Assembly (NCBI GenBank): GCA_030620045.1
Contig: JAUXAD010000003.1
Span: 1-47,741, forward strand
Direction: 5' to 3'
Origin: an archaeon
GTDB taxonomy: Archaea > Nanobdellota > Nanobdellia > Pacearchaeales > GW2011-AR1
Length of the DNA: 47,741 nucleotides
The notes beneath the pieces were generated by a model that did not search any database, was not told where the DNA came from, and saw nothing but the letters and a program-made list of their open reading frames with translations. A program made the translations under genes and the position numbers. Numbering within the stretch: position 1 is the stretch's first letter; each line of letters opens with the position of its first letter. Of this stretch, positions 2,051-24,192 are shown in pieces.

Positions 2051-2773
2051 TTATTGTTCTTTTAGTTTATTAATTTCAATTAAAGTTTCAATTATGAATT
2101 TTTCTGTGACTTTTAAAATCTCACAATTATTAACATTTAAATTATAACATGCAGGGCCAAACTGTTCTATGCTTGTAATATCCCCTGGCTGTATTTGCAC
2201 AAACATATATCTCCCTTGAGAATCACAAGTTGCATTTGGATCCTTAATAACCTTAATTCCTACTGCTCCAAGAATTTGCTGAAAATTATAACCCGCAATA
2301 CCCCCATGCCCCCCACAACTGAAACTTTCAGTGCTGTTAAGAACTAATCTCTCTCTCAAATTCATTTCACCTTCAAATGGAATATTTTCCAATTTCCTTG
2401 GGTCATTCCTAAGATAAATATTATACTCTGGAATATATTTCCCTGTAATCGGAGAATACATTGGGAATGATGTATGATAAAAAATAACTTCCCCTTCTTT
2501 TATGATACTAAAACTTACTCCACTATATTCAAAATGCTTCATAGAATTAATAATCAAGAAAACTAATATAAAAACAAAGATAAGTATCCCCAACCAAATA
2601 AGAAAATTCCTTAGTATTTTATTTTCAGATTTAATCTGCCCCTTAGCCACTGCCTTTGTTTCTTCAGTTCCACAGGTCTTAATTGTCTTTTCCCCATTTT
2701 TTTCTACTTTAAAAATCTCACAAACTTTTTCTTTTGTCTCTTTTTCTTCTTTCTTTTTTTTGTCTTTTCCCAT
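2051..2773 (-). CDS. Membrane-anchored hypothetical protein with Cys-containing ectodomain
   Basis: Charged N-terminus, single TM (LRNFLIWLGILIFVFILVFLI), ectodomain with several Cys. Confidence 0.7.
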   Translation of the reverse strand: MGKDKKKKEEKETKEKVCEIFKVEKNGEKTIKTCGTEETKAVAKGQIKSENKILRNFLIWLGILIFVFILVFLIINSMKHFEYSGVSFSIIKEGEVIFYHTSFPMYSPITGKYIPEYNIYLRNDPRKLENIPFEGEMNLRERLVLNSTESFSCGGHGGIAGYNFQQILGAVGIKVIKDPNATCDSQGRYMFVQIQPGDITSIEQFGPACYNLNVNNCEILKVTEKFIIETLIEINKLKEQ

Positions 2774-2803: not shown

Positions 2804-3376
2804 TTATCGTATTCCAAGTATTTTAAATAAAAACTCATCAGCAATTTGCGTTAAATTTTCTTCCTGCCCTTGAATAAAAACACAGTTCTCTTCTTGGATT
2901 ATTCCACTATTGTTATTCTTTTTTATTATAATAAAATTATTCTCACAAGTTTTAACAGGCAAATTCTCGCCACATCCCTCATCTAAACAAGCAGACTGCA
3001 CCCTTTGAACAAGTTTGTTCTGATAAAAAAGATTTCTATAAATTTCTAATTCTGCCTCACTGTTTTCTGAGGAAATGTATAAAGGCTTATTATAATAATT
3101 ATCTAAATACTTTAATTCAGAATCAATCTCTTCAACTTGTTGAGGATTATATTTAAAGGCAAACTGAATATCCTCTATATTTGTAAACCAAAAACCATTT
3201 TGTTCTACAAACTCAAATCCATTATAACTTAATTTATTTACATCGTCATTTCCCCCTCCACGAAAAGCATATCCTAAAATACTAAAGAGCATAACCCCCA
3301 CCAGAATTAATCCAATAATTATTCCATTCCGCCTTTTCTTTTTGCTTTCTTTATATTTTGAAATTATTTTTCTCAT
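2804..3376 (-). CDS. Membrane-anchored hypothetical protein
   Basis: N-terminal KESKKKRR plus TM (GIIIGLILVGVMLFSILGYAF); ectodomain with Cys; same strand and architecture as the neighbour. Confidence 0.7.
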   Translation of the reverse strand: MRKIISKYKESKKKRRNGIIIGLILVGVMLFSILGYAFRGGGNDDVNKLSYNGFEFVEQNGFWFTNIEDIQFAFKYNPQQVEEIDSELKYLDNYYNKPLYISSENSEAELEIYRNLFYQNKLVQRVQSACLDEGCGENLPVKTCENNFIIIKKNNNSGIIQEENCVFIQGQEENLTQIADEFLFKILGIR

Positions 3377-3473: not shown

Positions 3474-5945
3474 TTATGCTATTTTGCTTATAGTAGATGC
3501 GCCTTCAACGCCAACTATTCCTAAATACTTTCCACCTACAGTTGTGTCAATTGTGCTTGGTAAATTAGCAAGACGACTTGCAGCAGCAGCTGTATCAGCT
3601 TTCTCATATCCAGCTACAACCAAAGCAATCTTTCCACTGTCAACTACTCCTCCAGTACTTCCAGCAATACTTTGGATTAAATATTGTCCAGAACCCACTC
3701 CAGTAGCAGTAGTAAATGCAGCTTCACAAGTAGGATATGCAACTCCTAATGCAGTAGCAGTAGCTTCATTAATACAGCTTCCTCCAACAAGGATTACATC
3801 CCGGCTTTTCCAAGAAGTCGTTTCAGCGTCTGTGAAAACCATACTTCCTGCTTCAGCAGCAGTTCCTATAATTGTCTCTGGAGCACTTATACGGACACTC
3901 GCAGTTACTTCATCATCATGGTAAGTTAGAGTAAGCTTATACTGGTCTCCACTCTTATCCCACCAAGCTTCAGTAGCTAATTCAGAATAAGCAAAGTTTC
4001 TGTAAGTATCAGTGTCTAGTTGCTCTGTGAATGTTCCTTCACCAGCACCCATATTCACTGCAGTAACACTAACCTCATTGTTAGCATCATCACTTAATGT
4101 GATATTTATAGTATTTCCTTCATCAAGATTTTCATTCTTATCCTCTTCATTCATAACAAGACTATATGTTGCTGGATAATATTGACATGTTGTAGTATTT
4201 ACTCCTGACGTTCCCCCAGTAGTGTCATTGTATGTAACAAGTTGATTATATCCTAATTGTCCTGTTACAAAACTAACATTATCAGCAAACGCCGCACAAG
4301 CTACAGTAGCACTACTATAATTTTCAAGAGCCATGTTAGTTTCTGCAGTTACATTAATCCAAGGCAATGTTACTGCCATACCATCATCAGAATACAATTT
4401 ATTAAAGACCGTATTTCCAGTGGCACTTATTACAGCAACTTTTGTGTCTTTATCTAAACTATCTATATCAAATGTAACACTCCCAATTTCAACATCATCT
4501 GTATCATCTGCATCCTTCTTAACCTCTGTCCAAATACCATTTTTTTTATATTTGAATGTAACCATTTGTTTATTGCTTGTATTTAGAAAAGTAGTAGCTT
4601 TCATAAGATAAGATTCATGGTCTTGTGAGTCATTCCAAGAAGCAACAAACCACTCATCTGTATTTTCATTAAATGTAAGAGTACTGTTTCCAGAAGTTCT
4701 CAATATTTCATTAGAATCCTTTCCAACTAAAGTATAGTTGGTAGTATTGAAGTAAAGGATGTTAATGCTTTCAGTAGAATCTTTAAGAGGGAAATTCTTC
4801 AAAACAATAGACTCATCTCCATCATATTCAACTTTAATTTCCTCTTCTCCAGGATATGTTAATCCACCAAAAGACATCTTAACTGCTTCAAATCCAGGCA
4901 TTGTAATCATAGAATCTTCTGTAATAAACAAATCATCTTCAGCATCCCAAACTATCTTAATAGAAGTTAATTTAGTAGTACTGTTAGTAAATAGAACCCA
5001 CAAATCAGAAACAGTTTCTTCATTAAGTTCAATATCTGTTCCATTAGTAAGCTTTAGTTTACCTAAACCAATACTAAATTCCACCTTGCTAATGGCACCA
5101 GTTTTGGCTGTATACATAATATCTTTAACTCCTAAATAAGCACCATCACTCAATTTATATGTTTGAGCTTCTTCAAGACTGTTTGTAGTTTCTCCATTAA
5201 CTGTTAATTTTGTTTCAGTAGAACTTATAAAATTAATAGCAACTTCATAAGGTGTACCTTCAACAGATAATGTAGCAGTTTCTCCTTCACTAAGGATAGT
5301 ATCTGCTGCAGAATCCAACAAGGTTAGCTCATCTGCAATTGTCCCATTAGATAAAACATAGTAGGATTTACCCATAAATGGCAAATTACTTGTAGCTAAA
5401 TCAGACCATAATGGGTCATCAGTGAAATCCAATGTGTAATTCATAACATTATCTCCATTTGCAATATAAATACCTACAGTAGGTTCATCTGTCTTGTAAT
5501 CATTATCCTCAAACATCGCAACTCGAAGAGTTGCATTATTGATGTCAATTTTTTGAGTATAATCAAATTCATCATTATCATCATCAACAAACTCACCATC
5601 AGCTAATAATGTTGGCAAATCATCATCAGTAATTCTTGATGAAACAACATCTCCAGCATAATCACCTAAGTTAAACTTAGTTGATGTCTTTTCAAGTAAA
5701 TACGAGTCTCCGCCAGACACATCCTCACCAGTTGTCCTGACCACTGCTGCTAAATAATTAGAAATGCTATTTGCAGCCACAGTATCATCGACACCTGTTC
5801 CAGTACCAGTAACAACTGCAACTCCAGCGGTTGTACTACTTGAGTAAGGTGAAGGGAAACTTGCTGCAGCAGCAAATCCTACAGTCATGATAGGTAATAA
5901 AGCGCTAGCCACGATTGCTGAAATCTTTTTAAAATTCATTTTCAT
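3474..5945 (-). CDS. S-layer-like surface protein, 823 aa
   Basis: Signal peptide KKISAIVASALLPIMTVGFAAAASFPSPY, acidic secreted composition, C-terminal 'GKIALVVAGYEKADTAAAASRLANL' typical of archaeal S-layer proteins; strong SD; U-rich terminator. Confidence 0.8.
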   Translation of the reverse strand: MKMNFKKISAIVASALLPIMTVGFAAAASFPSPYSSSTTAGVAVVTGTGTGVDDTVAANSISNYLAAVVRTTGEDVSGGDSYLLEKTSTKFNLGDYAGDVVSSRITDDDLPTLLADGEFVDDDNDEFDYTQKIDINNATLRVAMFEDNDYKTDEPTVGIYIANGDNVMNYTLDFTDDPLWSDLATSNLPFMGKSYYVLSNGTIADELTLLDSAADTILSEGETATLSVEGTPYEVAINFISSTETKLTVNGETTNSLEEAQTYKLSDGAYLGVKDIMYTAKTGAISKVEFSIGLGKLKLTNGTDIELNEETVSDLWVLFTNSTTKLTSIKIVWDAEDDLFITEDSMITMPGFEAVKMSFGGLTYPGEEEIKVEYDGDESIVLKNFPLKDSTESINILYFNTTNYTLVGKDSNEILRTSGNSTLTFNENTDEWFVASWNDSQDHESYLMKATTFLNTSNKQMVTFKYKKNGIWTEVKKDADDTDDVEIGSVTFDIDSLDKDTKVAVISATGNTVFNKLYSDDGMAVTLPWINVTAETNMALENYSSATVACAAFADNVSFVTGQLGYNQLVTYNDTTGGTSGVNTTTCQYYPATYSLVMNEEDKNENLDEGNTINITLSDDANNEVSVTAVNMGAGEGTFTEQLDTDTYRNFAYSELATEAWWDKSGDQYKLTLTYHDDEVTASVRISAPETIIGTAAEAGSMVFTDAETTSWKSRDVILVGGSCINEATATALGVAYPTCEAAFTTATGVGSGQYLIQSIAGSTGGVVDSGKIALVVAGYEKADTAAAASRLANLPSTIDTTVGGKYLGIVGVEGASTISKIA

Positions 5946-6389: not shown

Positions 6390-6743
6390 ATGGCAAAATC
6401 AAAAACAAGGGAAATAACTATAACAGAATCTAAGGGAGCCTTTTCTATGTTTAGAAAATCAAAAAATTCAAAAAAAGGGTATGATTTTGAAGGAATCCTA
6501 GCATTAAGACAGCTATTAAGCAATGAAAAAGCAAGGATTTTACATGTCATAAAAACGCAAAATCCTAAATCTATCTATGATTTAGCCAAAAGATTAGGCA
6601 GGGGCTTCAAATCTGTAAATGATGATATCAAACTTTTAGAAAGATTCGGGTTTATTGAATTAATCGAAGAAAAGACAAAAAATCGGATAAGACACAAGCC
6701 TAAGATAATTGTAGATACTATTGCAATACATTTGAAGGTTTAG
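6390..6743 (+). CDS. Winged-helix transcriptional regulator (COG4190-like)
   Basis: LRQLLSNEKARILHVIKTQNPKSIYDLAKRLGRGFKSVNDDIKLLERFGFIEL wHTH pattern. Confidence 0.8.
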   Translation: MAKSKTREITITESKGAFSMFRKSKNSKKGYDFEGILALRQLLSNEKARILHVIKTQNPKSIYDLAKRLGRGFKSVNDDIKLLERFGFIELIEEKTKNRIRHKPKIIVDTIAIHLKV

Positions 6744-7291
6744 TAGTATGCCTTAAAATATATCTCGCAACCTTTTCCTGATTTAAAAAAATCTTGCATA
6801 GCCCCCTTGTAACTCCCGGTAACATTCCCTTCTTTAAGCAATAACATTTCTTCTTCATTTACAATTATTTGTAATTCATATCCTTTAACAGGCCTATCTC
6901 CTTCAACCTTCCAGCTTTCTTCTACCATGTCTTTTAAGGTTGAATTTAATACCTTGCAAGTATCTCTTTCGTCTAAACAATTTTCATCATCATAGCAATT
7001 AAAGATTAACTTTTGAACAGAAAGGAACTCTAAATCACTCTGATCTCTACAATTAGTATTATATTGCAAAAAAGCCTGGATAAAACTATTTACTTCATAA
7101 TTTTCAACAGTTTCTTTTTGTGGGGCTCTCAGGGAAATTCCCAAAAAAACAAGCAAAACCACAGCAACTATAACTATGATTAGAGCAAATCCAACTATCT
7201 CTTCTTGCGAGCGTTTTGACTTTAGGCAAATTTCTTTATTAATAACCGAAGTCAAGGCGCGAGTTGCTTTCTTATTATTTTTTCTTTTCAT
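6740..7291 (-). CDS. Type IV pilin-like/class III signal surface protein
   Basis: KRSQEEIVGFALIIVIVAVVLLVFLGISL pilin-like N-terminal helix; Cys-rich ectodomain; overlaps upstream gene by 4 nt. Confidence 0.65.
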   Translation of the reverse strand: MKRKNNKKATRALTSVINKEICLKSKRSQEEIVGFALIIVIVAVVLLVFLGISLRAPQKETVENYEVNSFIQAFLQYNTNCRDQSDLEFLSVQKLIFNCYDDENCLDERDTCKVLNSTLKDMVEESWKVEGDRPVKGYELQIIVNEEEMLLLKEGNVTGSYKGAMQDFFKSGKGCEIYFKAYY

Positions 7292-7809
7292 CCTTTATCC
7301 TCTGAACTAACCATCAGCCTTGCCAGTTCACATTTATCATAAATTTCCTCATTATAGGAGTCTTTTTTACATAAGGAAACAAAATTTGAAACTGGAGGCA
7401 GTGAATTTATTTCTTTCGAAAATACTTCAATGACACCACAATTTTCATAATTTGCAGTAGTGCATATAATATCTCCTTCATTTGGATAAATCTTTCTTAT
7501 TTGTATCTCAGCAACCCCCCAAAATCCTACATATTTCGCTGCATTTTCTTTTAACATCATAACTTTGTCAGCATCAATACAATTTATTCTATTACTCCCA
7601 AATGCTTCACCACAAGAAAATTCAGGAGAATTTGCCAATTTTGTCACCAATAACATAGCATTCTTTTCTTCAAGCAGTGTCGCTGACTCTTTTAATCCAG
7701 AAAATCTAAAAACCAATACAAACATTCCTGCTAGCACGAAAAATAATGTGATTGCCATTAACATAAATGCCATTTGCTGAATTTTTAGTTGTGCTTTTTT
7801 TGTTTTCAT
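7288..7809 (-). CDS. Pilin-like/TM-anchored surface protein
   Basis: KKAQLKIQQMAFMLMAITLFFVLAGMFVLVFRF N-terminal helix; ectodomain with Cys. Confidence 0.62.
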   Translation of the reverse strand: MKTKKAQLKIQQMAFMLMAITLFFVLAGMFVLVFRFSGLKESATLLEEKNAMLLVTKLANSPEFSCGEAFGSNRINCIDADKVMMLKENAAKYVGFWGVAEIQIRKIYPNEGDIICTTANYENCGVIEVFSKEINSLPPVSNFVSLCKKDSYNEEIYDKCELARLMVSSEDKG

Positions 7810-7819
7810 CTGAATTTAT

Positions 7820-7899
7820 GCGATTTCACTGGAGGCAATTATAAATCGCCTCACCGCAAAGGAAGGGAAAATCGAAAAAAACCGCTTAGGTTGTTTTCA
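7820..7899. repeat. 80-bp repeated intergenic element, copy A
   Basis: gcgatttcactggaggcaattataaatcgcctcaccgcaaaggaagggaaaatcgaaaaaaaccgcttaggttgttttca; 75/80 identical to 46956..47035. Confidence 0.95.
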
Positions 7900-8817
7900 T
7901 TACCATAGTCTACACTCCCAGTTTGCTTCATTTTTTTCTTTAATATCATTTACATTTATTAAGCCAAGATAAGCAGAATTATCTAAACTACTTGCAGCAT
8001 CATTCAACTCAAATAAATCCTGATTTAAATCAGAATAGCACCCTGCTGTTTGAGAAATAAAATCCGCCTTGTTTTCATAAAGCAATGCAAGATGCCCTGT
8101 TCTTTTCATAAGTCTTTTTAATTGGCGTTCATAAATTTCAGGGTCTGCAAAAACAGCAGCATACATCAAAGCATCTCCTTCAAAATACATGTTCTCTCCA
8201 TCTTTTTCAACATAATCACCGTAAACAATAATATCACAATCAGAACCTCCTCCAGAACAAACTTTTATACCATCATCTGGACAATCTTCTAATAAAAGAT
8301 TTTTCTGATTTAAATCTGAGATTTCATCTTTAATATTTTCTGGTGCATCAATAAAACAATATTTTTTCAAGGAAGAAAACATATAAATTAAATCAGTGAC
8401 TTTGAATGGAAAATCAAAAGGTTTAGAGAACACATAAAATTTCTTCCCTTCAACTTCTTTTTCTGAAAAAATATATTTATTAGGAAAACTAATGTCAATC
8501 TCTGTCTCTGTCCATTTGTTAAAACTCTTTTGTGATATCTGGATTATTTGCTTTCCGAACATCCCATAATTATCGCATTTATTATAAATTCTTGTTTCTA
8601 CAGGCACAGTAAAAGATGTGACTTTTGCTGTTTCAAAACTTGTTTCAAGAGGATTCAGTAAAATCCCGATTTCTTTTCCTGTTTTAGCATCCAAGGCTTC
8701 TTGTTCTGTTCCCATTAGTTGTGTGACTCCATAAATTGCAAGAAATAATATAAAAGCTCCTACAATAATTGCAAAAAGCCACGCAAATGATATTTGTAAA
8801 TAAGCATTCTTTTTCAT
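7900..8817 (-). CDS. Pilin-like/TM-anchored surface protein, 305 aa
   Basis: MKKNAYLQISFAWLFAIIVGAFILFLAIYGVTQLMG N-terminus; overlaps upstream gene by 4 nt. Confidence 0.65.
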   Translation of the reverse strand: MKKNAYLQISFAWLFAIIVGAFILFLAIYGVTQLMGTEQEALDAKTGKEIGILLNPLETSFETAKVTSFTVPVETRIYNKCDNYGMFGKQIIQISQKSFNKWTETEIDISFPNKYIFSEKEVEGKKFYVFSKPFDFPFKVTDLIYMFSSLKKYCFIDAPENIKDEISDLNQKNLLLEDCPDDGIKVCSGGGSDCDIIVYGDYVEKDGENMYFEGDALMYAAVFADPEIYERQLKRLMKRTGHLALLYENKADFISQTAGCYSDLNQDLFELNDAASSLDNSAYLGLINVNDIKEKNEANWECRLW

Positions 8818-9257
8818 TCTCTAATAATTTCAACCAAGGCTTCTCCATAATCTTTTTTAATTATCATTTTTACCTTGCCTTTAACATTTTCAATACAAAA
8901 TGGATTTTCAGCCTCAGTTATTTTTGTAATATTAATATGTTTTATTTCTTTTCCTCCTATAAAATCATCTGAGCGAAAAATCAAATTTTCATATTCATCA
9001 TCCTTAAAACAAACAGATTCTATTTTTGACGGCAATAAATATTCTACTTCTTGCGAGCCCTGAGAACCTTTCCACATTTTATCAACATCTGACTGAAGCC
9101 CATTTACAAATTGCCCAATCTTCATTTCATCCTGAATTCCAAGAAATGTTTTAATAGCATAAAAAGCAAAAGCAATAAAAATCACTATTAAAATAATTGA
9201 AAAAATCATTCCAAAAGATAACTTCATTTGCCCCCTCTTTAATTCACACCCTTTCAT
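8814..9257 (-). CDS. Pilin-like/TM-anchored surface protein, 147 aa
   Basis: KRGQMKLSFGMIFSIILIVIFIAFAFYAIKTFLG N-terminal helix; operon context. Confidence 0.65.
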   Translation of the reverse strand: MKGCELKRGQMKLSFGMIFSIILIVIFIAFAFYAIKTFLGIQDEMKIGQFVNGLQSDVDKMWKGSQGSQEVEYLLPSKIESVCFKDDEYENLIFRSDDFIGGKEIKHINITKITEAENPFCIENVKGKVKMIIKKDYGEALVEIIRE

Positions 9258-9291
9258 AAGTTAAAATAAGAAATAGAACTTATAAAGTTTA

Positions 9292-12200
9292 TTAATAAAA
9301 TTCAAAAGGTCTTATAATCTTACTGCACTCATTAGGGGATGGTTGTTTGCCATAGTCATCCTGGCATATAATATAAAATGTTGCTCCAGTATTCCAATCT
9401 GTATAATGGTTTACCTCATCTATTGTAGTCATGGGAGTTCCATCGTCAAAAGAGTAATCACAAGGATAATCTACAAACTTGGTATCATAAACACATATTG
9501 CTGGTTCATCTGTTATTAATTTCAAATATGTATCTTCATGATAAGCTCTTACAACAATTGGTTCATCTAAGTCAGTTTCAACTTCAAAGTTTAATGTTTC
9601 AGTATCACAATTATTACCTAAATCACAGCATCTAATGAAATATTCATAGCTTATTCCTGTAGAGCTTCCTTCTAGCCATAAATCATAAGAATGCTTATAT
9701 GCCCAAGGGGGTGAAAATTTATCATCAGCTATTCTATCAGATGGATCGCCAAATTCACAGGTCGCTTCCCCTTCCTTATAACCAAAAGAAGTTTTTGCCT
9801 CTAAAGTTACTTTAACACTTTCTGTTGAGTCTTTTATTATACTTCCATTTTCCGGTTTTACCCAATCAATTACCAATGGTTGAGTTCCAATTAAACTAAA
9901 TTTATAAGATTCTGTATTAACATTTCTCTTTGATTCTTCTACTCCTTGGGGTTGGTCTTTGCATCTAAAATAAAATCTATTTTCAACTCTGTCTTTTAAT
10001 CCTGTCAGTGTTGTTTCACAAGTATAAAGTCCTTGAGCATTCATTTCAAATACAGTTAGTGAGCAATCCATTTGGTGAACTGAATCATTTTCCATACTAT
10101 CATAACTTTGGTCAGAATGACTCCACCTACACTCTGCTGGTTCATTGATAGAAACCCACGTCTTTATTTCAGATTTGTTATAACCAAAAGGCATATTATT
10201 TAATGGATCAGTTTCAACAATTAAAGGAGGTGTTGTGTCAGGACCTTTTTCTACACAGAACTTGAATACAAAGTTTGCAGTATTAGAATTTCCATTAGCA
10301 TCTTGGCATCTTACATATAATTCATATTCTCCGTCATTTTCTATTGTGATATTTTCTGATCCTAATGCACTTGAACCTGGCAAACTCATAGTATAAGAAT
10401 GTTCATATTTAGACAAACCTCCACTAAAATAAAAGTTCATGTCATCAAAACTTTCTTTTCTTAAAATATCTATTTTACATTTTCCAGGCTCGTCTAACTT
10501 TACGCCAAATCCTAAAGGAGTGAAAGCAGGGACACAGTTTTCTTCATCTGCCCCTTCACCAATATATTCTATTATTACTCCCCTCTCTGGAGGAGAAAGA
10601 GCTTTGTCTGGGTCGTATTTATAATCATCAGTATTAATCAAAGCATCTTCCCATGCTTCTATTATTGGAAACTCAACATCACCCCTATTAACCCAAACAC
10701 ATTGTTCTTCATCTGTTCCTTTATTTACTAATTCACAAGCTTGCCCTAAACTTCTACACTGATATTCAGAACAAGGAAGAGTTCCTTGTTTATTACATTC
10801 TTCACAATCATCTCCACCAGTTTTTGCATCCCAAGGTTGACATGAAAATGAAATTACTTCTATATTTTCCCTTCGATACATAGCTAAAAAAAGAGCTATT
10901 GAAACTCCTATACCTATTCCAATACCCCACCCAGTTCCTTCTGCTCCCCCTATCCATGTTCCTACTGCTTTTCCAAGACCAACTCCTATACCTAATGCCC
11001 AAGATGCAGCTTCTGTTAAAGCTTTATCAAGTATTCCTAACTTTCCAAGAGTTTGTATTGCGCCCCAAACAGCTACCCCCCATGTCGCACCACCAAGAAT
11101 ACCATCTTCAAAACTCCCTTTCGGAACTTCAATAAAACCAAAATGTTTAACCATTTCAACAGGAGGAGTTTTTATTTTATCCTGATTTATAGTGCCATCC
11201 AGATTAAGGATTCCTCCTTCTTTTAATTTATCTATATCCTCTGGCTCTAATTTAGATTCCCCCTTTGCTGTTTTAACAAATATACCTTCGTCTGTCTTTT
11301 TAATTTGGAGAATATCTTCTCCATTTAGTTTTGGGGGTTCTTCTAATTTTTTTAATGTCGACCAAACATCTGCTTTATCTCCAAAAGTAATCCCTGGTGC
11401 TGCAGCAGCAGCCGCGGCCGCCACATCTTTATCTTTTATCGTTCCATCTTCTTTCACACCAAACAAATTTTCACATAATTTAGAACCTGCGCCTCTTTTT
11501 TTAAAGCATTCACTAGCCTCCCCACCATAATGGGCTCGAAGTTTTGCAAGATCTTCTTCTGTTAAAGTCGTATCAGCAGCATTTTTGTGTCTGTTTGCGC
11601 ACAATACCTCAACACCAAATATCCTCATGCAATCCTCATAGCTATCCCCATACCCTCTATTATCCATTAAGTCTGAAGTTTTTATTGCAGGAGCACCTCC
11701 TTCTGTGTCAATAATTCCTACATCTTTTAGTGCTGATATAACGTCAGAAATCCCTGTCGGAACAAGTAGACTTGCAGGTGCTTGGGGTCTTGTTGTTCGG
11801 GCATCACAACAACAAAATTGTGTATCACTACACATTCTAAAAATTGTTTCATCATCATCACATCTTCTGCTAGTACATCTTCCAGCCACATTATATTTGT
11901 TGTAACATCTTTCATTGCAGGCTTTATCTTTATCTTCCCCCACAGTTGTTCCACATTGAAAATCTCCAATACATTTACCTTCTGGTGTTGCTTTTCCAGG
12001 GTTAGTTTGCAAAAAAGGATAAAAACCACATAAAGTAGTACTTTTTTTAATAGGATAGTCTTCACAATTAACAACACATTCCCACTTATTCAGTCCCTCT
12101 GATATACGTTTCCATTTAACATTCTTGCCATACACGTCAACTGTCACTATAGTTCCCAAATCACATTCTTCATATATAGTTTCTCCACTAACAATCCCAA

Positions 12201-12300
12201 TTCCCCCGCCAACAGCATAAGAAAATGCAACTATCCCCACTACAAGAATTATAATTTGACTTAATGCCAATGCTCCTTTTTTCTTCATTTTTTTAAACAT
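9292..12300 (-). CDS. Giant Cys-rich surface protein with Gly-rich membrane segment and Ig-like 'EPAxCxW' modules, 1002 aa
   Basis: N-terminal KKKGALALSQIIILVVGIVAFSYAVGG; Gly-rich hydrophobic core; C-terminus homologous to C-terminus of 15287..19087 (IVVRAYHEDTYLKLITDEPAICVYD vs MVVRAYQDGGSLKLITDEEAKCYYD). Confidence 0.8.
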   Translation of the reverse strand: MFKKMKKKGALALSQIIILVVGIVAFSYAVGGGIGIVSGETIYEECDLGTIVTVDVYGKNVKWKRISEGLNKWECVVNCEDYPIKKSTTLCGFYPFLQTNPGKATPEGKCIGDFQCGTTVGEDKDKACNERCYNKYNVAGRCTSRRCDDDETIFRMCSDTQFCCCDARTTRPQAPASLLVPTGISDVISALKDVGIIDTEGGAPAIKTSDLMDNRGYGDSYEDCMRIFGVEVLCANRHKNAADTTLTEEDLAKLRAHYGGEASECFKKRGAGSKLCENLFGVKEDGTIKDKDVAAAAAAAAPGITFGDKADVWSTLKKLEEPPKLNGEDILQIKKTDEGIFVKTAKGESKLEPEDIDKLKEGGILNLDGTINQDKIKTPPVEMVKHFGFIEVPKGSFEDGILGGATWGVAVWGAIQTLGKLGILDKALTEAASWALGIGVGLGKAVGTWIGGAEGTGWGIGIGIGVSIALFLAMYRRENIEVISFSCQPWDAKTGGDDCEECNKQGTLPCSEYQCRSLGQACELVNKGTDEEQCVWVNRGDVEFPIIEAWEDALINTDDYKYDPDKALSPPERGVIIEYIGEGADEENCVPAFTPLGFGVKLDEPGKCKIDILRKESFDDMNFYFSGGLSKYEHSYTMSLPGSSALGSENITIENDGEYELYVRCQDANGNSNTANFVFKFCVEKGPDTTPPLIVETDPLNNMPFGYNKSEIKTWVSINEPAECRWSHSDQSYDSMENDSVHQMDCSLTVFEMNAQGLYTCETTLTGLKDRVENRFYFRCKDQPQGVEESKRNVNTESYKFSLIGTQPLVIDWVKPENGSIIKDSTESVKVTLEAKTSFGYKEGEATCEFGDPSDRIADDKFSPPWAYKHSYDLWLEGSSTGISYEYFIRCCDLGNNCDTETLNFEVETDLDEPIVVRAYHEDTYLKLITDEPAICVYDTKFVDYPCDYSFDDGTPMTTIDEVNHYTDWNTGATFYIICQDDYGKQPSPNECSKIIRPFEFY

Positions 12301-12312
12301 TTTTTATTTCAT

Positions 12313-14046
12313 TTAACCAAGTAGTCCTCCTAATAATCCTCCTCCTTCTTCCCCCTCTTGCCATGTTTTTGTAATTAGTTCATCTATATCATCATAATAA
12401 CCAGGTTCTCCAATAAAATTCACACCTGTCCCGCAATCTCCCATATAAGAGCATAAGTCCTCCATGTCGTCTTTCCAGTCCTTTTTTATATCTCCATCTT
12501 TATCCACACAAGCAGAATCTTTACAGTCATCTTCACAGAGTAAATCACAAGCATGAAGAGGATCATCCCAAAAACATTTTTCTCTACACTTTTGCATACA
12601 TTCATAATCCCCAACAACTATCCAGTTGATATCTTCTTCTTTTTCAGGATCAATTACCAGAGCCCCTTCAAAAACTCCTGCTTTATACTCAACAAGACAT
12701 TGTTGGCTTGCCAAAGAACACATTGATTCAGCATCTCCTTCTTCTTCCCAGAAATCAAATCCAGGATAATATTTAGGAACACAAGAAGAATTTACTTCTT
12801 CACCATTTTCTTCTTCAACCCTTCCAGAAATCACTCCTTCAACCCATTTACAATCTCTTTTATCTGGATTACTACAATCTTTTTCATTATCTTGAGAATA
12901 ACAATCCTGCCACATATTCACTCTGCAAGCTGCTGTTTTGAAAGTATTAACTTCTGATTGAGTGCAAACTTCTTGTCTAAAATCTGCGCAGGGTTCAACA
13001 CTAACTTCTCCATTATAACACACAAGTCTAAAATATCTCCTTCCTGGACTATTAATTCCTTCTCCATCTTTATCTGCAGAACACCATGTTTCTCCATGCT
13101 GATATGTGATGTCTTCATATTTACAACCTAAATCTTTACAAACATGTTTTCCTCCATCAGCTTTACAAGTAGTTCCTAAAAAATAATCACAGTCCCCGCA
13201 AGTTGAAGAATCTTTGCTTCCATCATCATTAATATCACAATCTGGAGCAGTAATCTTTCCCCAATAACCGTCATCATCATCAGGGTCATCCCAGTGATTA
13301 GCATCATACACATTCCCCAAATTCCCACAAATATCTAAAGAATATACCTCATCTCGTCCTTCAACACAAGTTGTTCCGCCTCTAGGTCCGCAATTAGTTC
13401 CTAAAGAATTAGCAGAGCATAAATAACCTTCATGGAACTCTACATCAGAATCTCCAGTCTGCATTTCTTGACATTCTTTTTTTGTCAAAAGTTTACAAGT
13501 TTTTTCAAACTCTTTTTCAAAAACACAAGCTCCTTTTACTTTTGGCCTTGCACTTGTAATACATTCCACTTCATTTTGAATATCCATTCTATAATTAATT
13601 TCCAATCCATATTTAGAAGCAAGGCTTTTACATCTTGTCAGTGTAACAAAAGCTGCCTGCTCTCCAATTAAACAACATCCTAATTGACATTGAGGAATAT
13701 CATCTTTGTCTCTTTCATCCCAAACTCCAGGAGTTTCTCCTCCTTCACAAACTCTTTGAGGAGTATTTGGCATGCAAGTTCCTTCTTTACTATTAATACA
13801 AACTCCTAATTTACAATAAGAAGTTGATTCACAAGAAGTAGGAACACTTCTACATGGTAATGGATTACCCTCAGAATCTTCTCCACAATTATTTCCCAAA
13901 TCACATTTCTCTTGAGGAGCATTTATACACCATCCTCCAGGTTCTCCTGCTTTTGTTTTCTCACAACAATATGAAACTTGTGCAGAGATAATACTAATTA
14001 GAAAAATACTTAATATTGTAAATAAAAATAATTTTTTATTTATCAT
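12313..14046 (-). CDS. Secreted Cys-rich surface protein, 577 aa
   Basis: Signal peptide LFLFTILSIFLISIISAQVSYCCE; homologous to N-terminal half of 15287..19087 (QCQLGCCLIGEQAAFVTLTRC vs ECQLGCCILDDGAKKIFTRNIQC). Confidence 0.82.
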   Translation of the reverse strand: MINKKLFLFTILSIFLISIISAQVSYCCEKTKAGEPGGWCINAPQEKCDLGNNCGEDSEGNPLPCRSVPTSCESTSYCKLGVCINSKEGTCMPNTPQRVCEGGETPGVWDERDKDDIPQCQLGCCLIGEQAAFVTLTRCKSLASKYGLEINYRMDIQNEVECITSARPKVKGACVFEKEFEKTCKLLTKKECQEMQTGDSDVEFHEGYLCSANSLGTNCGPRGGTTCVEGRDEVYSLDICGNLGNVYDANHWDDPDDDDGYWGKITAPDCDINDDGSKDSSTCGDCDYFLGTTCKADGGKHVCKDLGCKYEDITYQHGETWCSADKDGEGINSPGRRYFRLVCYNGEVSVEPCADFRQEVCTQSEVNTFKTAACRVNMWQDCYSQDNEKDCSNPDKRDCKWVEGVISGRVEEENGEEVNSSCVPKYYPGFDFWEEEGDAESMCSLASQQCLVEYKAGVFEGALVIDPEKEEDINWIVVGDYECMQKCREKCFWDDPLHACDLLCEDDCKDSACVDKDGDIKKDWKDDMEDLCSYMGDCGTGVNFIGEPGYYDDIDELITKTWQEGEEGGGLLGGLLG

Positions 14047-14354
14047 TTTATTTCTAACTTCTTTTTAATTAAAGACATATCATTTTTTAATGAACTCATA
14101 TCCTCTTTTATTTTACCAAAGCCATCTTTAACACCAATAGAAACATGTTTCATTTCAATTTTTGTTTCTCCAATCTCTCTATAAACTTTAAAGAAAAAAC
14201 TTGCCATCAATATAATAGCCGCAAAATTAAACTCACTAAGTCCCGGACTACCACCAAAAATCAATTCAATAAACCAATAAATAACTAATATCGCTAACAA
14301 GATTATTATAGTATTGATAATTATATTAAAAATATTCTTTTTCTTTTGAGCCAT
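14043..14354 (-). CDS. Small membrane protein with C-terminal coiled coil
   Basis: TM helices then KIEMKHVSIGVKDGFGKIKEDMSSLKNDMSLIKKKL; 4-nt overlap with the next gene. Confidence 0.65.
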   Translation of the reverse strand: MAQKKKNIFNIIINTIIILLAILVIYWFIELIFGGSPGLSEFNFAAIILMASFFFKVYREIGETKIEMKHVSIGVKDGFGKIKEDMSSLKNDMSLIKKKLEIK

Positions 14355-14355
14355 T

Positions 14356-14478
14356 TTATTTTATGCCCCCTGTAATCAAGATTTTAATTAATAATATAAT
14401 TCCTAATACAAGAATCAATGCTAAGAGCCAAAACATCCAATCTTTCTTCCACCAATCTTTTTCTATTTTATTTATCAT
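14356..14478 (-). CDS. 40-aa membrane microprotein (not in supplied ORF track)
   Basis: Translates as MINKIEKDWWKKDWMFWLLALILVLGIILLIKILITGGIK*; fills the gap between 14354 and 14479 exactly. Confidence 0.65.
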   Translation of the reverse strand: MINKIEKDWWKKDWMFWLLALILVLGIILLIKILITGGIK

Positions 14479-15252
14479 CTAAACCCCATATCCTGGAGGC
14501 CATGCAACACTCCTTGAAGCAAACTGAAATTTATTTTCTGTATTCCTGTCTGTTAAAATATAAATTGTTGTCCCGTCTGATTGCTTCTTCTTCTCAACTT
14601 TCAAATCATGATAATAATTCATATAAGTTGTAGTTTCTGAATCACCATATGTTGCTTCCCATTCTAGTATACTATTAGCTATACTAATTAATTCATAAAG
14701 ATTATTGTTCAAAACTACACTAAATGAATCTTGTTTTTCTGAATCCTCTCCTTTTGTTAAAGTTAATGAATGATCAAATGTAGCAACAACTCTTTCTGGA
14801 AGCAACTCAACACTTATTTCCCCTTTTCTTAAACTTACCTCATATCCTCTTTTTTGATAACTCTCTTTCATAGAATCAAAACACGCATCAACTTCTTCTT
14901 CAATTTCATTTTTAATTTCAGATTCAATATGCTCCTTTAACATTGGCTGTTGCACAACACACGTCTTATAATATTCTCCAGTGTAACACAAATATTCTAT
15001 TTTCTCGTTATTGTATAAAATATAATGTTCTGGAACTAAACTCCCTCCCTGCAAAGATAATTTTTCTATACTCTCTTTGATTTCATCTTCAATACAGGTT
15101 TGAATAAATGCCGTGGGGTTTTTTGGCTCAAGTCCTAAACCTACGCTAATTTCAGGGTAAAACATATATATTAAAATTCCAAGAACAACAATCATTACAG
15201 CAATGATTATAAAAATAGTAACTTGCCCTCTTTTATTAAACCTCTTTTTCAT
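14479..15252 (-). CDS. Pilin-like 'RGQVTIFIII' surface protein, 257 aa
   Basis: N-terminal KRGQVTIFIIIAVMIVVLGILIYMF; paralogous to 19084..19872 (FIQTCIEDEIKESIEKLSLQGG vs FLESCIEDKVKEGIEKISIQGG). Confidence 0.78.
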   Translation of the reverse strand: MKKRFNKRGQVTIFIIIAVMIVVLGILIYMFYPEISVGLGLEPKNPTAFIQTCIEDEIKESIEKLSLQGGSLVPEHYILYNNEKIEYLCYTGEYYKTCVVQQPMLKEHIESEIKNEIEEEVDACFDSMKESYQKRGYEVSLRKGEISVELLPERVVATFDHSLTLTKGEDSEKQDSFSVVLNNNLYELISIANSILEWEATYGDSETTTYMNYYHDLKVEKKKQSDGTTIYILTDRNTENKFQFASRSVAWPPGYGV

Positions 15253-15286
15253 ATTTCTTTTACGATATTCTTATTTATAAATTTAA

Positions 15287-18200
15287 TTAAGAACTTGGAA
15301 TAATTTTTATTGCACAATCTGAATTTGTATTGTCAAAAACATCTTTACACTTGACATGATAAGTAATATCAGGATTCCAAGTAGTTGTATGAACTGTTGA
15401 AAAAGCAGTTGTCATTGAAGTACCATTTTCTAAATTAAAACTACATCTATTTAAGTCATAATAACATTTAGCTTCTTCATCTGTAATTAATTTAAGACTC
15501 CCCCCGTCTTGATAAGCTCTTACAACCATGGGTGGAAGATCATCTATTATTAAATTAAATATAGCATTTCCTTCTGCTTTATTTCCAGCTTCATCTTTGC
15601 ATACTATTAAAACATTATAATTCCCAGCTGATGGGTGAAGGGGATATATGTGATAGGTATCTTCTTGTGCAAAAAAGTCCCATCCGAGTGGGGGTTCTAC
15701 AAAATCATATTCACATCTAGAAATACCATTAGCCATTCCTCCAGAAGTTGTAACTCTTAAATCATCTGCCTCAGTTGGTACACTCCCTCTTCTAATCTCT
15801 CCTTGTGGAGAAATTGAAACAATTTGTAATTCATTTTCTGTTGCATATAAAGTATAAGGAAAACCATCCATATTTACATTTCTATCATTTTCATTCCACG
15901 GACCATCATAGTCACATCCTGTTTGTGTTGGGTCACAAACCCATGGTTGGTCTTTGCATTTAATATAAATATTGTTTGTTGGTTTTGTTAAATTTGTAAG
16001 TGTTGTTGAACAATCCCATCTTGATTTCATTTCCCATGGGTGATAGTCATCACAAGAAGTAAAGGTTTCCATTTCATCATATGACTTATCTGTATCATGA
16101 GTCCACTTGCACTCTGCTGGTTCATCTAAGGAAATTGTAAGAATCTTTTCAGTAATATTATATTCTAAATAAGAACCACTTTCAGGACTGAATCCGTTTT
16201 CTTTTATTCTTGCATGCTCAATATCCTCACCTTCTTTTATGCAAAAATTTACTATATATTCATTGAAATTAGGATTACCAGCATAGTCTTCACATCTTAC
16301 ATACATATTCAACTCCCCCCATCTTTCCCCAAGAGTTCCACTAATAACATCTAAACTTGAAACAAAGGGAAGCCGATTTTCAAAACGATGAAGTACAGAA
16401 TAAGAATTTCCTTCTTTAAACTCCTCACCTTCTAAGGTATAATCCTCTGTAGCATTTGGTGCAACTGGTTTCCAATTATAAACACACTTAGCATAATCCT
16501 CATTACTCCCTTCTTTTGTTATTAATGAAAAATTAATCTCAGTGAATTCTTGAATACACCCCCCACTACTATTTCTAATTTCAATTCCATTACCTCCAGG
16601 TCTAGGACTATCACTATAAAGTCCCCCATCTAATTCATTTAGAGAAATTTTCGGTGGAGTACTATCATCACGATATTGATTAATGCAAATAGATTCTTCT
16701 GTTTCATATAATTCATCTTTGCTTATGAATCTACAACCACTACCTAGAGACCTACACTTATATTCAGTGCAAGGTTTATTATCATCACATATAGAACAAT
16801 CATATTTGTCTGGATTTGTAGGGGGTTGCCAAGGTTTGCATGTAAATTCAACATCTATTTCTTCTTCTGACCCAACCCCCCCAGGTCCAAATATAAGTGC
16901 TAGGACAGCTGTTAAAATTATCAATACTATTGCGATAATCCACCCAATAACAGGACCAGGACTAACAGCCGCAGCTGCTGCAGCAGTAGTAGCAGCAGCA
17001 CCGACAAGACCCTCAGTAGCAGCAGCAACAACAGCTGATGTTATTAAACCAGCGACTATTGTTGCTACTCCTGACAAACCACCCATAACTATACCAATTG
17101 CCAGTCCTGGATTTGTATAATCTAAACCTGGTTCAATCGCATCTAAAGCATTTCCTATCCAATCTTGTTCTGTTGAGCTAAAGAATTTAGGAGGGTTTCC
17201 TTTGCCTATTTGGTCATCTCTTGCATATTCTTCTCCAGACCCTTCACCTATGTCTCCATCAGCAGTAAAAAGAGGCCATTTTGAATATTCCCCAGCCATA
17301 AGAACATATATCCAGTAAGCATCATCATCATCTAATTTATCTATATCAAATGTTCTAAAATTTTTAGTATATTTTCCTTCTGTATTTACATAACCTCCAC
17401 AATCTCCAATACTAGTACAAAATTCATTCATTTCGTCTGCAAATTTCTGGTCTAAACAATTGCAATTTCCTCTGCACTGTGTATGGAAAACACCTTTTAC
17501 CCAGGATGTTGGACATGACACAGATGCTATTGAACATAGGTCATTACTTTTGTCTTCTGCTTCCCAAAACTTAAGTCCAGCAGGATATTCTGGAACACAA
17601 ACATCAAATATAAAAAAATTCGAATACTCTCCATCCTCCTTAGAACGAGCTAGAGGGTCTATCGCTTGGTCATCACCTATTAAATGCCAGTAATAATTTC
17701 CTGGATCTGCATAAATTTTCGGAGCATCTTCATCATGCAAATCTACTTGTTGAACTCTACAATCAGATAAACTATCACATTCGTCATTAAAGTCACCTAT
17801 ATCATCTTCATTACTTATTTCTCCATCATCTTCAAACTCATAAGCTACTGGTTCTATTTGAAAACACCTCCATCCTTCATTAGCTCTGCATCTAGCCACA
17901 GAATATTCTCCAGTAGTTTTTTCACCACAAATTTGCATTCTATACTCTCCACAAGCTTCAACTTTTATTTCTCCCCTATCACACCATCTTCTTCTATGCT
18001 CACTTCCAACAACATCCCTACTCTCTCCAATATAACTTTCATAAATACACCAAGATTCTCCATTTTGAGGAGGTCTTTCATATTTCTCTTCAAAATAATC
18101 GTCTTCACAACTTAAATCTTCACAAGCATAATCACCATAATCAGGATTTACTCCTGCTTCAGATGAAGGAGCACACATACTAGTTAATCCATCACAATTC

Positions 18201-19087
18201 CCACAAGTTTGGGAATCTTTTCCATCTCCACAACTAGAATTTTGAACCTTTTTCCAATAATCTAAGTCATCCAATTTTGAAACATCATATACATTTGCTA
18301 TATTACTGCAATTATCTAAAAAATAAACTTTGTCATTATAACAAGTTGTTTCTACTTCCACTATTGGTAAGGACATAGCACAATTATTATTTAAGTCAGG
18401 ATGAGAGCATAAAGTTTTTAAGTAAAAATCTCCATCCAACGTCGCACAAGTGTTTTCTGTCACAAACTGACAACCTCCATCATTGAGAACACATGCTCCC
18501 ATTTCTTTAGTATAAACCCTGCAATCTAATTGAGAAGTTGAAGAATCAAAAACTCCTCCCTGAGTTGTACATTGTATATTTCTTGTGAATATTTTTTTGG
18601 CTCCATCATCTAATATACAACATCCTAGTTGACATTCAAAAACTTCATCAATAGGATTATCTTCCCAATTATCTTCACATCCTTTTTTTGTTCCAACAGA
18701 ACATGTTCCCTCTTCTTCGTCAACACAAGTTCCTGTTTTACATAAATCAGTTGATTCACAATCTGTCATCCATGTTTGTCCAGCACAAGAATCTTCAGAA
18801 CCAATAGGCTGACAAGTTGCATTATTTATTTCTTCACAACACCAATCTTCCTGGGCAGAAACAATTCCTATTTGTTTTATTGATAAAAGTCCTACCAATA
18901 AATTTAATCCTGAATTAATTAAATTAAATTTATTTTTTTCTTTAATTATTTTTGTTTCAGTTAGGGAATCAGTTTTATGAATAATATAACTATTAGCAGC
19001 AATCATATTAACTAATAAAAAAATCTGAAATATCACAACAGCTAACAAAACAATTTCTTTTTTATTTTTCTTTATTTTTGACATCAT
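15287..19087 (-). CDS. Giant Cys-rich surface protein, 1266 aa, fused equivalent of 577-aa plus 1002-aa proteins
   Basis: N-half matches 12313..14046, C-half matches 9292..12300; Ala/Gly-rich hydrophobic core between. Confidence 0.82.
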   Translation of the reverse strand: MMSKIKKNKKEIVLLAVVIFQIFLLVNMIAANSYIIHKTDSLTETKIIKEKNKFNLINSGLNLLVGLLSIKQIGIVSAQEDWCCEEINNATCQPIGSEDSCAGQTWMTDCESTDLCKTGTCVDEEEGTCSVGTKKGCEDNWEDNPIDEVFECQLGCCILDDGAKKIFTRNIQCTTQGGVFDSSTSQLDCRVYTKEMGACVLNDGGCQFVTENTCATLDGDFYLKTLCSHPDLNNNCAMSLPIVEVETTCYNDKVYFLDNCSNIANVYDVSKLDDLDYWKKVQNSSCGDGKDSQTCGNCDGLTSMCAPSSEAGVNPDYGDYACEDLSCEDDYFEEKYERPPQNGESWCIYESYIGESRDVVGSEHRRRWCDRGEIKVEACGEYRMQICGEKTTGEYSVARCRANEGWRCFQIEPVAYEFEDDGEISNEDDIGDFNDECDSLSDCRVQQVDLHDEDAPKIYADPGNYYWHLIGDDQAIDPLARSKEDGEYSNFFIFDVCVPEYPAGLKFWEAEDKSNDLCSIASVSCPTSWVKGVFHTQCRGNCNCLDQKFADEMNEFCTSIGDCGGYVNTEGKYTKNFRTFDIDKLDDDDAYWIYVLMAGEYSKWPLFTADGDIGEGSGEEYARDDQIGKGNPPKFFSSTEQDWIGNALDAIEPGLDYTNPGLAIGIVMGGLSGVATIVAGLITSAVVAAATEGLVGAAATTAAAAAAVSPGPVIGWIIAIVLIILTAVLALIFGPGGVGSEEEIDVEFTCKPWQPPTNPDKYDCSICDDNKPCTEYKCRSLGSGCRFISKDELYETEESICINQYRDDSTPPKISLNELDGGLYSDSPRPGGNGIEIRNSSGGCIQEFTEINFSLITKEGSNEDYAKCVYNWKPVAPNATEDYTLEGEEFKEGNSYSVLHRFENRLPFVSSLDVISGTLGERWGELNMYVRCEDYAGNPNFNEYIVNFCIKEGEDIEHARIKENGFSPESGSYLEYNITEKILTISLDEPAECKWTHDTDKSYDEMETFTSCDDYHPWEMKSRWDCSTTLTNLTKPTNNIYIKCKDQPWVCDPTQTGCDYDGPWNENDRNVNMDGFPYTLYATENELQIVSISPQGEIRRGSVPTEADDLRVTTSGGMANGISRCEYDFVEPPLGWDFFAQEDTYHIYPLHPSAGNYNVLIVCKDEAGNKAEGNAIFNLIIDDLPPMVVRAYQDGGSLKLITDEEAKCYYDLNRCSFNLENGTSMTTAFSTVHTTTWNPDITYHVKCKDVFDNTNSDCAIKIIPSS

Positions 19088-19872
19088 GAGAATTCAAAAC
19101 CAAATCCAGGACCTGTTACGCATCCTCTTACAGCAAACCTAAATTCTTCACCACTTTCCCTATGTTCAATATTATAGATTATTGAAGAATCCATTGTCCG
19201 GTATTTATTTATATTTAATTCAGGATAATGAAGCATATCATAATTATTAAAATCACATATTGTTGCTTCTTTGTTTATAATTTCTTGAACAACAAGAGCT
19301 AAATCATAAAACCTGCTTGGAATAATAATTTTAAAATCCTCTTGCGTTGAAGTTTCATCCGCCTTTGTTAATATGAGTTCTGCATCAATTTCTATCACCA
19401 CCTTTTTTTCCATTAACTCAACTTCAAAATCTCTATAATTTACATCTACCCCATATCCTCGGTTGATTAAACTTGATGTTAATTTATCAAAACAATCCAC
19501 AACATCATCAGAAATATAATTTTTTATTTCATCTTCTAAATGCCGAATTAACATTGGTTCTTGATTTACACAAAAAAGATCATCATTTTGATTGTAGCAT
19601 AAATAAGAAATATCAACAGGAAGATTTTCATCTTCTAATTTAAATTTTTTATGAAGTGGATTTTCTATATATCCTCCTTGTATAGAAATTTTTTCAATAC
19701 CCTCCTTAACTTTATCTTCTATACAAGATTCTAAAAAAATATTAGGATTTTCTTCTGGCTTCTCTCCAATTCCTGGAATCACTCCGCTCCTAATAAGAAA
19801 AAATAATGAAATTATGCCAACCAGTATTATCCCAACAATTATAAAAATAGTTACTTGCCCCCTCTTTTTCAT
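19084..19872 (-). CDS. Pilin-like 'RGQVTIFIIV' surface protein, 262 aa
   Basis: MKKRGQVTIFIIVGIILVGIISLFFLI; paralogue of 14479..15252; 4-nt overlap with 15287..19087. Confidence 0.78.
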   Translation of the reverse strand: MKKRGQVTIFIIVGIILVGIISLFFLIRSGVIPGIGEKPEENPNIFLESCIEDKVKEGIEKISIQGGYIENPLHKKFKLEDENLPVDISYLCYNQNDDLFCVNQEPMLIRHLEDEIKNYISDDVVDCFDKLTSSLINRGYGVDVNYRDFEVELMEKKVVIEIDAELILTKADETSTQEDFKIIIPSRFYDLALVVQEIINKEATICDFNNYDMLHYPELNINKYRTMDSSIIYNIEHRESGEEFRFAVRGCVTGPGFGFEFS

Positions 19873-19970: not shown

Positions 19971-20696
19971 CTAATCCTCGGTTTCTACTCTTGGCGCAAG
20001 AATAAAACTAAGTTCCATCTGTTCTGTTTTAAATTCCATTTTTAAGGGATGGTCATTTGCAAATTGTAAAGTTGTTTTTTCGCAAAGTTTTGCACCTTTC
20101 ATAAATTTTTGCAAATATTCTAAACTATATTTTGACTTGCAATTCTCAGCTTGTATATTTGCTTCATCTCCAGAGAACTCAGACCTCGCAGAATTCAAAC
20201 CCTTTGCCTCAATTATAAATTTCCCTTCTTCAATTACAAATGAGCAGGAATCAGCAACAACCACACAGTCTTCGATTGAAGCAATTAAATCAATTGAATT
20301 TAATTCCACTCTTGAACTAAACTCCAAACTCGGCATTTCTTTATCTTCCCCTTCTATTTCAATAAGGCTTAAAGTGAAATTTCTTTTAATTCTATCTTGA
20401 ATTTGAATTCCTAATAAATTCCCTTTTTTTTCTAAAATTAAAAAACTTCCAGAGCCGCATCTTTTAAGAATTTGTTTTAAATTATCCAGATTAATTCCCA
20501 AAATTTCATCATCTGTTTCAAACTGGGAAAACGAACTTTTCGGCAGCTTAAATCCAACCATCGCGACATTTGCAGGGTCCATCGCCGTAATACTCATTCC
20601 AAATTCATTTACTTTAATTTTTACTTCTGTAACTAGTTCAGAAAGAAGTTCAATTGTCTTTGACAGCAAAGTAGGATTCTCTAATTTTAATAACAT
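19971..20696 (-). CDS. pcn: DNA polymerase sliding clamp (PCNA)
   Basis: ITAMDPANVAMVGFKL, LGINLDNLKQILKR and C-terminal LSFILAPRVE are PCNA hallmarks. Confidence 0.96.
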   Translation of the reverse strand: MLLKLENPTLLSKTIELLSELVTEVKIKVNEFGMSITAMDPANVAMVGFKLPKSSFSQFETDDEILGINLDNLKQILKRCGSGSFLILEKKGNLLGIQIQDRIKRNFTLSLIEIEGEDKEMPSLEFSSRVELNSIDLIASIEDCVVVADSCSFVIEEGKFIIEAKGLNSARSEFSGDEANIQAENCKSKYSLEYLQKFMKGAKLCEKTTLQFANDHPLKMEFKTEQMELSFILAPRVETED

Positions 20697-23848: not shown

Positions 23849-23892
23849 TTAATTATAGATATTTTTAAATACCCATTTTATTCTTTTGAAGA

Positions 23893-24153: not shown

Positions 24154-24192
24154 TAAAATAAACTTTATTAACCATACATTTCTCTTATTTAG

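Follow-up and report, generated by a model that had tools for sequence, protein, structure and literature searches.

The stretch of DNA analysed here (the window) comprises 47,741 nucleotides of contig JAUXAD010000003.1 (contig C14 of assembly GCA_030620045.1), from the genome (830 kb in 45 contigs) of a tiny, probably host-dependent archaeon whose closest named relatives are Candidatus Pacearchaeota metagenome-assembled genomes. A minus-strand operon in the window encodes a near class-wide set of unannotated surface proteins, among them pilin-like proteins and giant cysteine (Cys)-rich proteins, and adjoins a surface-coat gene in the nearer families. In our judgement there is about an even chance that the operon encodes a type IV-filament-like surface complex, of pseudopilus or minor-pilin type, which displays the giants, is powered in trans and likely serves adhesion. 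How DPANN archaea touch and exploit their hosts is a central open question. If the operon supplies the pilins of an orphan ATPase-TadC locus found elsewhere in the genome, four pseudopilins, protein A, the giants, the ATPase, the TadC-like platform and a peptidase would form a complete, testable machine. Its named parts would then be targets for proteomics and tomography on DPANN cultures that are already available.

The genes are arranged in the order A1-G1-A2-(40 amino acids)-T2-C2-G2-P4-P3-P2-P1, between the PCNA gene (19971-20696) and a probable surface-layer (S-layer) gene (Table 1). The open reading frames listed in a preliminary description of the window were all recovered, and the 4-nucleotide overlaps it had mentioned were located at A1/G1 (19084-19087), T2/C2 (14043-14046), P4/P3 (8814-8817) and P2/P1 (7288-7291). 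The Cys-rich protein C2 and the two small membrane proteins that it had placed in the second cassette are likewise present, and the six N-terminally anchored proteins that it had counted as a minimum are A1, A2, P1, P2, P3 and P4, each with a single N-terminal hydrophobic anchor. None of the operon proteins scanned exceeds the cut-off for any Pfam or NCBIfam family. Pfam DUF7248 was considered for P4 and dismissed, as the match (E 1e-4) is under the cut-off and gave no function. Searches of PDB sequences with the A, C, G, P3 and TadC-like profiles gave nothing meaningful.

Homologues of G1 were found in 73 of 96 relatives, mostly genera of the same family. Gene maps were read for 60 loci of the family and order, 20 loci of other families of the class and 20 more distant loci. 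The layout recurring in the family and beyond is PCNA - A - giant Cys-rich protein(s) - P4 - P3 - P2 - P1 - S-layer gene. The upstream PCNA and the downstream S-layer gene occur in the nearer families, and the class-wide core is a giant followed by P4-P3-P2-P1, often with A before the giant. Among the 29 family or order loci with P3, P4 lies upstream in 29, and P2 and P1 downstream in 27 and 24; 28 of the loci have a giant upstream, and 23 have an S-layer gene downstream. A giant is upstream in 19/19 loci of other families and in 18/20 distant loci, with the full P quartet in 13 and 17, respectively; a recognised S-layer neighbour was seen in 0/20 of the distant loci, and in distant families the operon is extended by more small pilin-like genes. 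Outside the order the identity of P3 is 15-30%, yet the order is kept across dozens of genera and many families. Because gene order is conserved across the class, the operon is not a chance grouping. The earlier proposal of one co-assembled structure is well supported by this class-wide synteny, in that the genes co-occur and Pfam and NCBIfam assign them no unrelated function. In a set of 287 genomes from across the phylum, 217 gave a match to P3 and 203 to the G profile, many G matches outside the nearer families being weak. Loss of P3 in G060, G069 and similar genomes was considered and rejected, since a deeper profile found P3 elsewhere in those genomes. None of the other loci read yielded a homologue of T2. 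The preliminary description did not include the tie to the S-layer gene, the occurrence of the operon across the class or a Gly/Ala-rich hydrophobic segment in the giants (see below).

Class III signal peptides contain [KR][GA], then Q and a hydrophobic stretch, usually with E at +5. The string [KR][GAS]Q stands just before the hydrophobic stretch in 94/112 A, 53/60 P1, 41/62 P2 and 46/67 P4 sequences, compared with 16/151 single-anchor open reading frames of the same loci, most of which are themselves pilin-like neighbours. The AlphaFold2 model of P3 (predicted local distance difference test, pLDDT, 94.5; predicted template modelling score 0.88) shows an unbroken N-terminal helix of 53 residues together with a beta head and an alpha domain at the C-terminus, a predicted architecture like that of pilins. 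The A1 model (pLDDT 92.7) has a short anchor, a low-confidence flexible link and an alpha/beta head. Profile comparison related P3 and P4 (97%), the remaining proteins sharing mainly the anchor. The term pilin-like, as used in the preliminary description, is thus supported for P1, P2, P4 and A by their prepilin-type N-termini and for P3 by its modelled helix and beta head, but the model of A1 is not that of a classical pilin. A further pilin-like family, 'Q', follows P1 in many P operons of many families. In one distant family (L279, L282-L284) the P operon goes on with several small Cys-containing KKGQGLSL/KKGSADMWW pilin-like genes, which suggests a larger pilin repertoire. Far from the operon, positions 46058-46612 (minus strand) hold one more pilin-like gene (MKPQIRNKKAAMEMSVGTIVTVVLL), matched by the P4 profile.

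The giants combine two kinds of domain. The C domain has more than 30 invariant Cys across 41 homologues, and alignment of the G domain revealed an FxCxPW...PCSEYxCxSLG module plus immunoglobulin-like (Ig-like)-looking repeats. Repeated xCxDxxGNxxxxxxF...DxTPP strings are present in the giants. They had been described as Cys-rich and Ig-like; the first is borne out by the Cys counts of G1 (66) and G2 (41), while the second is weakly supported, by the repeat strings and weak Pfam Big_13 matches (E 0.05-0.17). Between C and G, just before the G domain, G1, G2 and their homologues carry a Gly/Ala/Ser-rich hydrophobic stretch, in which glycine-zipper motifs number 3.4 per 160 amino acids, versus 0.35 in membrane-protein controls and 1.7 in shuffles. 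This stretch may be a membrane anchor or may insert into a membrane. No adhesin family was matched by the giants in Pfam, NCBIfam or PDB-sequence searches, nor was homology to PilY1 found. In distant families the giants measure 1,000-2,500 amino acids.

The two cassettes are true paralogues, as had been proposed. The N-terminal half of G1 is 38% identical to C2 (E 4e-29) and its C-terminal half 34% identical to G2 (E 4e-50), and A1 and A2 share 35% identity; by these alignments G1 is a fusion of what cassette 2 has as separate genes, C2 and G2. In the A-family tree the sequences of the family form two groups, one of the 'fused cassette' type (99/79) and the other of the 'split cassette' type (99/97). 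The single-copy sequences of other families fall outside both groups, which indicates one old duplication of the cassette within the family. Single-cassette genomes of the family retain the split type, adjoining P4-P1, so cassette 2 is taken as the core and cassette 1 as the extra copy.

The preliminary description had seen no pilus ATPase or platform protein in the window, and no T2SSE or T2SSF match was obtained on its contig; both are present elsewhere in the genome, where two sets were found. The notion that no motor exists was rejected on this account. Contig C2 (not to be confused with protein C2) holds a canonical machine, close to the Pfam models, with an ATPase (T2SSE 1.5e-35), two TadC proteins (canonical T2SSF) and its own pilins. 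At that canonical type IV pilus locus (L095:1386-2636), a 416-amino-acid pilin-like protein with 47 Cys lies upstream of a Pilin_N protein and the ATPase. Contig C26 encodes a 764-amino-acid FlaI/TadA-type ATPase (NCBIfam FlaI 1.3e-37), followed by a 147-amino-acid open reading frame and the first 226 amino acids of a TadC-like protein, whose gene is cut by the contig end. Of archaellum features, only the FlaI-like similarity of this ATPase was seen, no search aimed at a FlaH/FlaF/FlaG and archaellin locus having been made. In other genomes this platform has about 720 amino acids and 7-9 hydrophobic segments. It is related to TadC by profile (91%, E 1e-6), is mostly missed by Pfam T2SSF and was found in 281/287 genomes. 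Divergently encoded coiled-coil-like genes lie beside ATPases of the 764-amino-acid type. The set of ATPase, platform and coiled-coil genes matches DPANN 'locus 2', which, in the available part of the report of Hamm et al. (2024, PMC11291902), consists of CpaF, TadC and coiled-coil genes, filament proteins being shown for locus 1 only. A complex of pseudopilins with no motor at all, an idea that arose from the T2SSF-negative genomes, was rejected, as their T2SSE matches of about 770 amino acids are FlaI/TadA-type ATPases beside the 720-amino-acid TadC-like protein. One prepilin peptidase (A24) is encoded in the genome, on contig C42 (Pfam A24 5e-11), and 39/40 genomes checked have one, including genomes that lack canonical T2SSF.

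Pairing of P3 with each motor was assessed in the 287 genomes, with counts given as both / P3 only / other only / neither. For the close form of the 720-amino-acid platform the counts are 210/7/41/29 (odds ratio 21), and in the seven P3-positive exceptions the platform match is absent, weak or partial. For canonical T2SSF they are 172/45/63/7 (odds ratio 0.42), that is, no positive association. A strong T2SSF match is missing from 53/217 P3-positive genomes, and a lineage-specific TadC profile of the canonical machine still gave no match in most of the T2SSF-lacking P3-positive genomes tested. With a deeper P3 profile, 12 of the 41 genomes that have the platform but had seemed to lack P3 became positive, as against 0/28 of those with a divergent platform. 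These 28 genomes, from several families (G077, G080, G088, G188 and 24 others), have a divergent 720-amino-acid platform and no detectable P3, and may use a different substrate set. In G134 and G147 a 'Q' family gene directly follows the 720-amino-acid platform gene.

In the type IV-filament-like reading, P4, P3, P2 and P1 would be anchored pseudopilins, most with prepilin-type N-termini, presumably trimmed by the single A24 peptidase. Together with anchored A and the giants, in which the Gly/Ala-rich segment joins C and G, they would form one structure that displays a giant disulfide-rich, probably Ig-like protein at or through the S-layer, as the synteny suggests. Co-distribution and shared neighbours point to assembly in trans by the separate FlaI/TadA-type ATPase and the TadC-like platform of about 720 amino acids. 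The A-C-G cassette would have been duplicated once in the Pacearchaeota family, with cassette 2 kept and cassette 1 extra, a history supported by the A tree. Its probable function is attachment to a host cell or surface. It would work in the manner of the tip complex that minor pilins and PilY1 form on bacterial type IVa pili, although no homology to PilY1 is claimed. In archaea, ATPase/TadC modules are considered to act in trans on sets of pilins (PMC4858521). In groundwater, ultrasmall cells with pili-like appendages were reported, and Pacearchaeota were described as unusually strongly host-attached (PMC7906910), which makes host contact, already suggested in the preliminary description, a plausible function of the operon. 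A bolder version, which we regard as improbable, holds that the operon provides the pilins for the orphan 'locus 2' CpaF-TadC motor, that these form a short pseudopilus pushing the giant through the S-layer, that the Gly/Ala-rich glycine-zipper segment of the giant inserts into the membrane of a partner cell, and that this is a hitherto unrecognised host-contact apparatus shared by most of a DPANN class.

Several points weigh against the type IV-filament-like reading. So far neither a filament nor a complex has been observed. Only 15/68 P3 sequences have the [KR][GAS]Q motif, and in none of the families is E one of the common residues at +5; the combination of Q at +1 with no E at +5 is unusual. 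Foldseek comparison of the P3 and A1 models with the PDB found no relative for either, and the 'pilin' label therefore rests on the N-terminal region and the helix architecture. The head of A1 is joined by a low-confidence loop, unlike a pilin; given this build of short anchor, flexible link and head with no PDB match, the term anchored accessory protein suits A better. The motor genes and the operon are not adjacent. Related genomes share both states, so the pairing counts are not independent evidence per genome, and the association of P3 with the platform is dominated by one P3-negative family set with the divergent platform and is thus phylogenetically confounded.

The main rival, distinctly less probable in our view, is a static S-layer-associated complex, in which single-anchor proteins hold giants that anchor, space or assemble the S-layer, the N-termini are mere anchors and no motor takes part. 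It accords with the position of the S-layer gene right beside the operon in the family and in several others, with a breadth of conservation that suits envelope housekeeping, and with the non-pilin build of A1. However, the 20 distant-family loci keep the core with no recognised S-layer neighbour, P3 tracks one specific ATPase-TadC subfamily, and both the [KR][GAS]Q motif and the retained prepilin peptidase are left unexplained. If the proteins were instead accessory pilins or adhesins of the canonical type IV pilus machine on contig C2, that machine would be at hand, complete in the same genome and close to the Pfam models, and archaeal machines can accept pilins in trans (PMC4858521). It has its own pilins at its locus, however, and the idea is already weakened by the phyletic data, namely the P3-positive genomes with no strong T2SSF match or lineage-specific TadC match; we consider it unlikely. 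Equally doubtful is a pseudopilus like that of the type II secretion system (T2SS), secreting or taking up protein or DNA, with the four small proteins as GspH/I/J/K-type subunits and the giants as exit structure or cargo. The set order in which the four small pilin-like proteins occur, with a larger one among them that has an alpha-helical domain, the presence of ATPase, platform and peptidase, and the lack of an obvious major pilin encoded nearby would fit, but no structural similarity to solved minor pseudopilins and no cargo were identified. That unrelated surface proteins merely share an operon is suggested by their domains of unknown function and is largely refuted by the order kept across dozens of genera despite large divergence, which leaves it very improbable.

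Known systems resemble the operon in part. The type IVa minor pilins and PilY1 (PMC7541494) also combine several minor-pilin-like proteins and a giant surface protein in one cluster with a presumed type IV pilus motor; the giants here differ in being Cys-rich with hydrophobic segments, no sequence or fold homology was shown, and the head folds of P3 and A1 have no solved match. Archaeal type IV pilus clusters, for example those of Thermoproteales, include genes for multi-Cys minor pilins as well as for S-layer-like proteins and putative adhesins (Makarova et al. 2016, PMC4858521). They share with the operon small pilin-like and large secreted proteins, many conserved Cys, an S-layer link and a possible ATPase/TadC in trans, whereas here both the quartet order and the C-hydrophobic-G build of the giants are fixed across a DPANN lineage. 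DPANN 'locus 2' has the same content as the motor proposed here, including opposite-strand coiled-coil-like genes; the available part of its description (PMC11291902) does not mention the present operon, and the link between motor and operon is one that we infer. The T2SS minor pseudopilins GspH-I-J-K likewise number four, are small and prepilin-like, keep a fixed order and include a bigger member that has an alpha-helical domain. No homology to GspH-K was detected by sequence in Pfam and PDB-sequence searches or by fold in the PDB (P3 model). To our knowledge a T2SS secretin is not expected in an archaeon.

Table 1. Operon genes, their domains and adjoining features in the window
Feature	Coordinates	Strand	Description
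A1	19084..19872	-	262 amino acids (aa); anchor with RGQ motif, alpha/beta head, 6 Cys; cassette 1 gene 1; Q6 invariant in 84 homologues
G1	15287..19087	-	1266 aa, 66 Cys; C domain, hydrophobic segment and G domain fused
C domain of G1	17363..18910	-	About aa 60-575; paralogue of C2
Gly/Ala-rich hydrophobic segment of G1	16865..17110	-	aa 660-741
G domain of G1	15290..16855	-	About aa 745-1266; FxCxPW domain and Ig-like-looking repeats; paralogue of G2 C-terminal part
A2	14479..15252	-	257 aa; A1 paralogue; cassette 2 gene 1
40-aa single-pass membrane protein	14356..14478	-	
T2	14043..14354	-	Small membrane protein, 103 aa
C2	12313..14046	-	577 aa, 49 Cys; secreted or anchored; free-standing C domain
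G2	9292..12300	-	1002 aa, 41 Cys; N-terminal anchor, linker, Gly-rich hydrophobic segment, G domain
Gly-rich hydrophobic segment of G2	10867..11109	-	About aa 398-478
P4	8814..9257	-	147 aa, pilin-like; N-terminus RGQMKLSFGMIFSIIL
P3	7900..8817	-	305 aa; predicted 53-residue N-terminal helix, beta head, alpha-helical domain (model)
P2	7288..7809	-	173 aa, pilin-like; KKAQ motif
P1	6740..7291	-	183 aa, pilin-like; KRSQEEIVGF motif
Helix-turn-helix gene	6390..6743	+	Convergent to operon, conserved; Pfam HVO_A0114, E 4e-17; possible regulator
Probable S-layer protein	3474..5945	-	823 aa; conserved operon neighbour

The 823-amino-acid neighbour is probably an S-layer protein, judging from its length, signal peptide and conserved position; its match to Pfam S_layer_C (E 0.006, 16.7 bits) is under the gathering cut-off of 23.9. 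Directly downstream of it, 2804-3376 and 2051-2773 (minus strand) encode single-anchor proteins of 190 amino acids (4 Cys) and 240 amino acids, and genes of similar size occupy the same place after the S-layer gene in many loci of the family and class (e.g. L110, L136, L144, L257, L259, L269). A secreted protein of 1018 amino acids with 57 Cys is encoded at 36042-39098 (plus strand), with only a weak match to Pacifastin_I (E 8e-4). After PriS, positions 22088-25749 (plus strand) encode a 586-amino-acid protein with 28 Cys and a 518-amino-acid secreted protein. Neighbours of similar size are found around PriS in L096, L097 and L107, which indicates that the block of Cys-rich surface genes reaches past the operon.

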